Shown piece after piece: positions 52,373 to 54,540 of a stretch of DNA of 64,000 bases; the first letter of the stretch is position 1, and every line of letters starts with the position of its first letter. Position numbers and translations under genes: made by a program. Location of the stretch: assembly GCA_031291435.1 (NCBI GenBank), contig JARLJC010000370.1, positions 109,101-173,100 of the forward strand, given 5' to 3'. The notes under the pieces are model-generated. The model was not told the origin of the DNA, did no database searches, and saw only the letters and a program-made list of their open reading frames with translations. The stretch is from Alphaproteobacteria bacterium (GTDB taxonomy: Bacteria; Pseudomonadota; Alphaproteobacteria; UBA9219).

Positions 52373-53782
52373 TCAGGGGGCTGTGCCGCGATGCTCGAGC
52401 TTGTCGAGCCGTGCCGTCTGATCGCGTAACTGCGCGCGCAGATCGTCATTCTGGTGTTTGAGTTCCTGCACCGAGCCGATCAGCGGCCCGATCAATCCGT
52501 TATAATCGACATATTTGCGACCGTTATGATTCTCCACCAGATCGGGGTAGATCGGCTCCAGCTGTTGTGCGGTAACGCCCATGCCATGGCTATTGGTGTC
52601 TTTATACATGAAGGCGACCGGGTCGATCTTCATGACATGGTCGAGCGCGCCGGTAATCGGGTGAATGTCGGTTTTAAACCGCGCATCGGAAGTTGGAAAA
52701 ACCTTGATGGCATAAACTGCCCCCTTAATGACGTTGATATCGCCCTGATTGATAACCATCACCGGCGGGCAATTGGCATTGGTCAGCGACGAGCAGGCGC
52801 TATTGTTAAGGCTGATAAGGGAAGGCGCGCCGTTGGTGGTAAGCGCGGTCGTCAGAGAGATCTGCGACGGGGCCAGCGTGCTGGGCGGGCCGTTGCCGTC
52901 GATATAGCCGCTTTGCAGATGGATCGAAGGGCCGGTCGTGCTAAGCGCGGTAGCCGCCAGTTTCGTTCCCATGAAGATATCGGTCATCATGGTGTTGTCG
53001 GTATAGGTGCTGTCGCCGGTGATGACGTTGCGCGCCAGCCATTGATTGTTGCTGTTGCCGGTGGTCGAAGAGACAAAAGTGCGCGCCGCGATGCCGCCTT
53101 TTTGCACCTGCGCCGCGGGGAAGCCGTATCCGCTCGGCCCTGCCGCCGTAACATCGCTAATCTGCCAGGCCCCCAGCGCGCCGCAGGCGGCAACCGCCGA
53201 GGCGGCCGCGGTGCAAACCGCGCTCGAATAAACAAAGCCGCCATCGCCGCCGATCAACCCCGATATACGCCCTCCATCGACATCCGCGATGACGGTGCCG
53301 CCGCTGGTCGTAATCATGAACGAGTAATTGACGGGGTAGGTGCCGCCTCCGGTGTTGTCCTTAAGGACGCGGATATTATAGGTCTGGCCATAGGAATTGG
53401 TCGTCGCGCTGGTGAATCCCGTCGGCAGGTAGTTACAGAATTGCTCGGCGTTGGCCATTGCGGCATCGGCCTTGCACAGGGTCACATTGGTGCTCGCGGC
53501 ACCGGGCAGCGGCAGGGCTTGAGTGGCATTTGCGAGCATCTGTTGCATCCACCACTGACCGCCATGGCCGGTAACGGGTACCGTCGTATCCGCGAGAAAA
53601 CCTTTGACCGCATTGATCAGCGCGATCTGCTGCTGCGCCGTGGCCTGATCCTTGGATTGCTGGTTGCCGGTCGACATCAGCCGCCACAGCCCCGCCGACA
53701 TCACGCCGACGACGCCGAGAACGATGGCCAGCTCGATAAGCGTGAAACCGCGGCGGCGGTTGAGAAATTTGTGCGCCAGCAT
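52373..53782 (-). CDS. PilV-like type IV pilin with C-terminal S74 (chaperone of endosialidase) domain
   Basis: Prepilin signal RRRGFTLIELAIVLGVVGVMSAGLWRLM; PilV-like middle (LPTGFTSATTNSYGQTYNIRVLKD..ADVDGGRISGLIGGDGGFVYSS..GAWQISD); S74-like C-terminus TSDARFKTDIHPITGALDHVMKIDPVAFMYKDTNSHGMGVTAQQLEPIYPDLV..DYNGLIGPLIGSVQELKHQNDDLRAQL. Confidence 0.85.
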   Translation of the reverse strand: MLAHKFLNRRRGFTLIELAIVLGVVGVMSAGLWRLMSTGNQQSKDQATAQQQIALINAVKGFLADTTVPVTGHGGQWWMQQMLANATQALPLPGAASTNVTLCKADAAMANAEQFCNYLPTGFTSATTNSYGQTYNIRVLKDNTGGGTYPVNYSFMITTSGGTVIADVDGGRISGLIGGDGGFVYSSAVCTAAASAVAACGALGAWQISDVTAAGPSGYGFPAAQVQKGGIAARTFVSSTTGNSNNQWLARNVITGDSTYTDNTMMTDIFMGTKLAATALSTTGPSIHLQSGYIDGNGPPSTLAPSQISLTTALTTNGAPSLISLNNSACSSLTNANCPPVMVINQGDINVIKGAVYAIKVFPTSDARFKTDIHPITGALDHVMKIDPVAFMYKDTNSHGMGVTAQQLEPIYPDLVENHNGRKYVDYNGLIGPLIGSVQELKHQNDDLRAQLRDQTARLDKLEHRGTAP

Positions 53783-53865
53783 TTTTTCTCCTCATACGCA
53801 GTTATTTGCGGCGCGATCTTTCAATCAGGCCGGCCCGGGGCAGAAAATCATTTCCTGATTTAAGG

Positions 53866-54540
53866 CTACTCTGCCGTCGAGATAATGGCAACCGATCCGT
53901 TGGGGATCGAGGTGGGAACGACATAAGCGAGAGTCGAACTGACGGTATTGGTGGCGGCGTCGGTCACGGTGGTCGCTTTCGAGGTGGCGGTCAGCGTGCC
54001 GCCCTGCACGGTGCCGTAGGTCAGCGTCGGCGAGCTGTTGCGATGCAGCTGGTTGAGCAGATCGCTGGTCGTGAATCCCGACGAAGCGCCGTTGGACAAA
54101 GTCAGCTGGCCCTGGCTGTTGGGCGCGGCATAGGTAAGCACATAGGTGACGGCGTTGGGCGCGCCGACGAAAGGCAGCGACTGGAACACCACCGAATAAA
54201 AACCGTAAACCGATTGATAGCCCGGCGGCAGCGATACCGTGCCGGTCGGCGTCGTATTGGTGCTGATCGTCAGATTGCTGGCGATGCCGCCGATTTTGCC
54301 GCTGCAGGTCGCCAGCGGATTGTTGCCGCCGGTGACGACAGGCGTCAGGCTGCAGCCGGTGGTCGAAAAACTGGTGGGCGGATTAACCAGGGTCTGTTTC
54401 AGCGCGATGCTGTGCCAGGTTTCCATGGTGTCGGCCAATGTCGTCTGGGCATTGGCGATCTGCGCGCTTTGCAGGCTGACGACCTGCGCGAACACGCCCA
54501 TCACGGACAAAGCCAAAGTGACGAAGACCACTAAAAACAT
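53866..54540 (-). CDS. PilM-like (R64 thin-pilus type) membrane-anchored protein
   Basis: Single N-terminal TM MFLVVFVTLALSVMGVFAQVVSLQSAQIA; C-terminal VPTSIPNGSVAI; directly upstream of the PilV-like gene. Confidence 0.5.
   Translation of the reverse strand: MFLVVFVTLALSVMGVFAQVVSLQSAQIANAQTTLADTMETWHSIALKQTLVNPPTSFSTTGCSLTPVVTGGNNPLATCSGKIGGIASNLTISTNTTPTGTVSLPPGYQSVYGFYSVVFQSLPFVGAPNAVTYVLTYAAPNSQGQLTLSNGASSGFTTSDLLNQLHRNSSPTLTYGTVQGGTLTATSKATTVTDAATNTVSSTLAYVVPTSIPNGSVAIISTAE

Follow-up and report, generated by a model that had tools for sequence, protein, structure and literature searches.

When examining a 64,000-nucleotide stretch of DNA (the window; positions 109,101 to 173,100 of contig JARLJC010000370.1, assembly GCA_031291435.1) from a member of the alphaproteobacterial order UBA9219, we observed that a single reading frame encodes both the N-terminus of a type IV pilin and, near its other end, a Peptidase_S74 domain, that is, an intramolecular chaperone (ICA). 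On the sequence evidence, the protein, denoted here PilV-S74, is a PilV-type minor pilin with a homologous constant region. The interpretation that we favor, with a probability of about 0.7, is that of a chromosomal, R64-like type IVb PilV in which a short variable neck, followed by a self-cutting S74 chaperone, takes the place of the exchangeable tip. The pairing of a pilin with S74 was already known from a 2021 catalogue (PMC8179133), as was S74 autocleavage from Bdellovibrio fibres; added here are the PilV identity, the order-wide orthology, the conservation of the catalytic dyad, the variable neck and the reading of S74 as a self-removing chaperone. Among open-licence papers, we found none that ties S74 to PilV or reads S74 as the chaperone of a pilin.

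Domain architecture

The open reading frame that the first-pass annotation had delineated is present at exactly the proposed coordinates (Table 1) and is preceded by a good ribosome-binding site, with the Shine-Dalgarno sequence GAGGAG at 53788-53793. Most of the gene is overlapped by an antisense frame, also of 469 aa (window 52454-53863, plus strand), which is taken as a high-GC artefact. Within the one frame, Pfam recognizes N_methyl (1.3e-6) and Peptidase_S74 (1.2e-13), both above the curated cut-offs, and the N-terminus also matches TIGR02532 above its cut-off (24.4 bits), in agreement with the class III prepilin signal originally proposed. The predicted cut in MLAHKFLNRRRG/FTLIE falls after G12, so that F13 becomes residue +1 and E17 residue +5, and all three residues are unchanged across the 18 aligned sequences. 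A phmmer search against the PDB gave weak matches only, the best of them to pilins along the N-terminus.

Table 1. Features of the pilV-S74 locus, in window positions
Feature	Position	Strand	Remarks
PilV-S74 gene	52373..53782	-	469 aa; ATG at 53782, TGA at 52373-52375
Prepilin leader MLAHKFLNRRRG, aa 1-12	53747..53782	-	N_methyl; TIGR02532
N-terminal pilin helix, aa 13-64	53591..53746	-	AlphaFold helix 15-64, pLDDT mostly 69-93
PilV-type globular constant region, aa 65-268	52979..53590	-	hhalign; Shufflon_N in orthologues; AlphaFold
Variable neck, aa 269-364	52691..52978	-	Predicted mature tip once cleaved; lowest identity, widest length range
Neck Cys pair, C330 and C338	52793-52795; 52769-52771	-	
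Peptidase_S74/ICA domain, aa 365-445	52448..52690	-	Pfam; Foldseek
Ser365 codon TCC	52688..52690	-	Predicted cleavage immediately N-terminal of Ser365
Lys370 codon AAA	52673..52675	-	Predicted catalytic base
C-terminal long helix/coiled coil, aa 427-465	52388..52504	-	AlphaFold helix, pLDDT about 80-86
Conserved upstream partner, 224 aa	53866..54540	-	Helix aa 2-52 and beta domain (model)
Small Cys-rich exported protein, 124 aa	51978..52352	+	Convergent with pilV-S74

The AlphaFold monomer consists of a confidently modeled pilin domain, the globular part of which has pLDDT values mostly between 65 and 96 up to about residue 240, and a confident S74 domain with a 39-residue helix that corresponds to the expected terminal coiled coil. 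The neck between them has pLDDT values below 50, as it should if this segment needs trimerization to fold.

The PilV-type constant region

The HMM comparison suggested by the first-pass annotation had a split outcome: Peptidase_S74 was readily detected, whereas Shufflon_N, the Pfam family for the PilV part, is not matched by the window protein itself and is matched by 2 of 18 orthologues (best E-value 1.4e-4). The relationship to PilV became apparent in profile-profile comparison. An alignment of 25 PilV-S74 family members, compared by hhalign with an alignment of PilV from R64, IncI2, Methylovorus, Bordetella and Enterobacter plasmids together with the PilV-position protein of a Burkholderia plasmid, gave a probability of 99.5% (E 4.5e-23, 243 columns). 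With the N-terminal helix removed, the probability was still 98.4% (E 4.8e-15), compared with 0.1-0.6% for the controls (PilS, PilM and the neighbor family), which bears out the PilV-type constant region claimed from inspection of the sequence.

R64 PilV is the type IVb tip adhesin of the thin pili of IncI plasmids. PilV-S74 shares with it the prepilin N-terminus, the homologous constant region, a variable distal part and, in related genomes of the order, the position of the last gene in the pil operon. It differs in that it is chromosomal and in that S74 and the coiled coil replace the exchangeable C-terminal domains, the position in which the S74 module had indeed been placed; furthermore, pilT and pilU are not seen between pilS and pilV in loci L069 and L071, and neither a shufflon recombinase nor shufflon repeats were found. 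In particular, a search with the sfx pattern produced a single weak match 24 kb away, at chance level, no inverted repeats were found, and no recombinase was recognized by inspection among the neighboring ORFs. Shufflon exchange of the C-terminus is rejected on these grounds.

The S74 domain and the neck

The assignment of the C-terminal part to S74 is supported by several comparisons. Peptidase_S74 is matched by all 18 aligned members, the PHROGs matches of the C-terminal part are to phage baseplate and tail-fiber families (best 4.6e-25), and the matches in a viral structure library are S74 tail fibers. Foldseek retrieved the ICA domain of MyRF (7dc3, probability 1.00) and the K1F chaperone (3gw6, 0.93), along with CofB (0.16). 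The domain is the same as in the K1F phage endosialidase, the T5 fiber and MyRF, with the same Ser-x4-Lys dyad and a matching fold, but it is carried here by a pilin and not, as there, by a virion spike or a transcription factor bound to a membrane.

Ser365 and Lys370 form the S74 dyad (S-D-x-x-x-K) with the five-residue spacing that had been noted, although the serine codon had been given one nucleotide off, as 52687-52689. The motif is kept in 29 of 29 distinct full-length orthologues from three families, a count that leaves aside one orthologue cut at a contig end (G002) and one split gene (G029), whereas elsewhere in the protein identity falls to as little as 28%. Some of this invariance may be due to the S74 motif being conserved in general. 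The mean pairwise identity amounts to 53% in the N-terminal helix, 39% in the PilV core, 25% in the neck and 48% in S74. The neck, at 73-163 aa, is the most divergent and the most length-variable part of the protein. It carries a pair of cysteines 26-63 residues before the serine in 15 of 18 orthologues and a repeated glycine/hydrophobic pattern that is clearest in several of them. The expectation that cleavage would leave a folded adhesin has to be revised: what would remain beyond the pilin is no large adhesin but the short variable neck, of about 96 aa in the window protein. In a phylogenetic tree, the S74 domains of the pilV genes do not form a clade, although their monophyly is not rejected (p-AU 0.139).

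The source genome encodes five additional S74 proteins (L001, L002, L003, L005 and L006, on contigs C313, C219, C40 and C259), the N-termini of which look like secretion signals, not pilins, and which resemble bacterial S74 fibers. One of these S74 proteins contains a Shufflon_N-like stretch (1.4e-8; L054, contig C219:785-1075).

Genomic context

In the same two loci (L069 and L071), the gene order is PilP, PilQ, PilR, PilS, a gene of unassigned family and, last, PilV-S74, that is, an R64-like type IVb operon, with family matches for PilP (TIGR03021, 8.8e-9), PilQ (T2SSE, 7.9e-49), PilR (T2SSF, 1.6e-23) and PilS (PF08805, 2.8e-13). Two further loci (L085 and L086) have, by inspection, a similar layout with apparent secretin and PilO genes upstream. 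The association with pilN-O-P-Q-R-S is accordingly that of an operon in L069 and L071, while in the source genome the pil genes that were found are on other contigs: PilQ, PilO and a PilN-like protein (matched below the cut-off of that family) are encoded on contig C223, apart from pilV-S74, and PilS-type pilins on contigs C111 and C223. Near PilN/O/Q on C223, inspection shows an apparent block of phage or gene-transfer-agent structural genes (L082-L083). PADLOC gave no match.

In the window, pilV-S74 stands together with the gene immediately upstream (53866-54540), and the convergent gene for a Cys-rich protein is adjacent. Most of 17 loci that were retrieved have a relative of this upstream gene directly upstream of the pilin, the cluster of relatives comprising 14 loci. 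Its product matches no Pfam or NCBIfam family and no PDB fold; an identification as PilM fits by position and size but is at most tentative, given an hhalign probability of 0.9%, relatives with no Pfam match and no matching PDB fold. In 10 of the 17 loci, a relative of the Cys-rich protein is encoded at the corresponding position and, as a matter of speculation, this protein might be a candidate secreted partner of the tip, by analogy with TcpF and CofJ.

Phyletic distribution

Of 33 genomes from the order, 31 have an orthologue of PilV-S74; they represent 15 of 15 genera, and the gene is found at one location per genome with the exception of the fragmented G002. Its absence might be accompanied by that of PilQ: G028 has neither, and in G029, where the gene is broken into two frames (L089), no orthologous PilQ was found. 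Co-loss is, however, weakly supported since G016 and G019, both fragmented assemblies, retain the gene where no orthologous PilQ was found.

Among 386 genomes drawn across the class, PilV-like matches were found in 12 outside the order, and S74 was not recognized in those of their C-termini that were read, some of the frames ending at a contig edge. Genome G077 has two tandem PilV-like genes with different ends, neither of them S74; G133 has three PilV-like paralogues (L155 and L156) with similar Cys-rich, possibly lectin-like C-termini ending in CFVDP or CFVHP. The matches in 399 Pseudomonadota genomes include no further protein combining pilin and S74, a count that does not extend to the ends of the PilV-like proteins of G734, G580 and G443. 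In plasmid and phage records, tblastn covers, among the matches listed, the S74 end alone or the neck plus S74.

A proposed self-removing chaperone at the pilus tip and the alternatives

In characterized S74 proteins, the domain drives trimerization and then removes itself by cleavage before the serine. Trimerization, self-cleavage before Ser365, tip location and a binding role are what we infer for PilV-S74, the location by analogy with tip pilins of other type IVb systems. The prepilin would enter the inner membrane via its N-terminal helix, with the C-terminus in the periplasm, where three S74/coiled-coil ends would come together and serve as the template on which the neck folds into an intertwined trimer, joining three pilins as in the tips formed by CofB and TcpB. 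Folding would complete the Ser365/Lys370 site, and the chain would be cut just before Ser365, releasing a fragment of roughly 105 residues and leaving the short, variable, beta-rich neck as the tip. The trimer would then cap the pilus, and may initiate it, with the neck displayed as a contact surface. That the tip trimerizes and then loses its chaperone is the simplest reading of the PilV identity combined with the autocleavage of S74 in Bdellovibrio Bd3182, which is lost in the S782A mutant (PMC10769870), the location of the TcpB trimer on top of the pilus (PMC9565799) and that of the CofB trimer at the tip (PMC10191384).

Conceivably, S74 trimerizes the tip but stays uncut, with the coiled coil and S74 serving as a distal cap, and the uncut S782A form of Bd3182 is indeed a stable single species (PMC10769870); the invariance of both catalytic residues in all 29 orthologues from three families, against the divergence of the remainder, makes this unlikely. 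Localization to the shaft or a pseudopilus would be in line with the resemblance of the N-terminal helix to the GspH/GspG pseudopilins (NCBIfam) and with its match to PilS, which covers just the helix (hhalign, 93.6%). We assign this possibility a low probability given that the globular part specifically matches PilV and the adjacent genes in relatives are those of a type IVb pilus, PilP to PilS; a bulky trimeric end would also fit best at the tip, judging by CofB, TcpB and PilB of S. sanguinis.

Yet another possibility, which Raynaud et al. suggested for pilins with S74, is that the pilus displays S74 as a protease effector acting on other proteins. Phage and MyRF S74/ICA domains cleave their own chain, however, and the serine of PilV-S74, like that of phage spikes, marks the expected scissile bond where the variable neck meets S74. 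Since the characterized S74 domains of Bdellovibrio also cut their own chain (PMC10769870), we consider an effector role very improbable, notwithstanding that the catalogue of Raynaud et al. (PMC8179133) labels the module a predicted S74 peptidase. Finally, the source genome is a fragmented MAG (2.84 Mb, 373 contigs, 6.5% contamination), so an accidental fusion, a prophage remnant or an assembly chimera would come to mind; this explanation is refuted, and its probability reduced to a negligible level, by the 29 full-length orthologues, which show the same architecture and conserved neighbors in independent assemblies, and by the orthology across 31 of the 33 genomes.

Relation to known systems and implications

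PilV-S74, with its pilin N-terminus and S74 module in one chain, has the IPR012902-IPR030392 architecture that is among the 15 commonest of the modular pilins compiled by Raynaud et al. 2021; the two modules, class III pilin and S74, are the same, but there the architecture was only counted and was called a predicted S74 peptidase (PMC8179133). The MAT fibers of Bdellovibrio (PMC10769870), for which autocleavage is proven, are likewise bacterial surface fiber proteins ending in S74 with SDxxxK. They are typically about 1000 aa long and differ from PilV-S74 in that a signal peptide, followed by a MAT N-terminal domain, stands in place of the type IV pilin stem that Pfam and AlphaFold identify here. 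With CofB and TcpB, the protein shares the nature of a type IVb minor pilin that would be expected to form a trimer at the tip, and CofB is its best, if weak, pilin fold match. To our knowledge, the distal domains of CofB and TcpB are not S74.

A conserved PilV with a putatively self-removing trimerization module bears on how type IVb tip pilins trimerize and how new tips evolve. We also put forward, tentatively and as a possibility short of an even chance, that self-cleavage serves as an assembly checkpoint, such that only a correctly trimerized PilV tip would shed its chaperone and be able to cap and start the type IVb pilus, the neck being the rapidly evolving contact surface of the order. 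If that is the case, pilus initiation would be coupled to a phage-type folding proofreader. More generally, the finding suggests that the catalogued 'peptidase' pilins may be self-trimming trimers, tying the folding of phage spikes to pilus tips.
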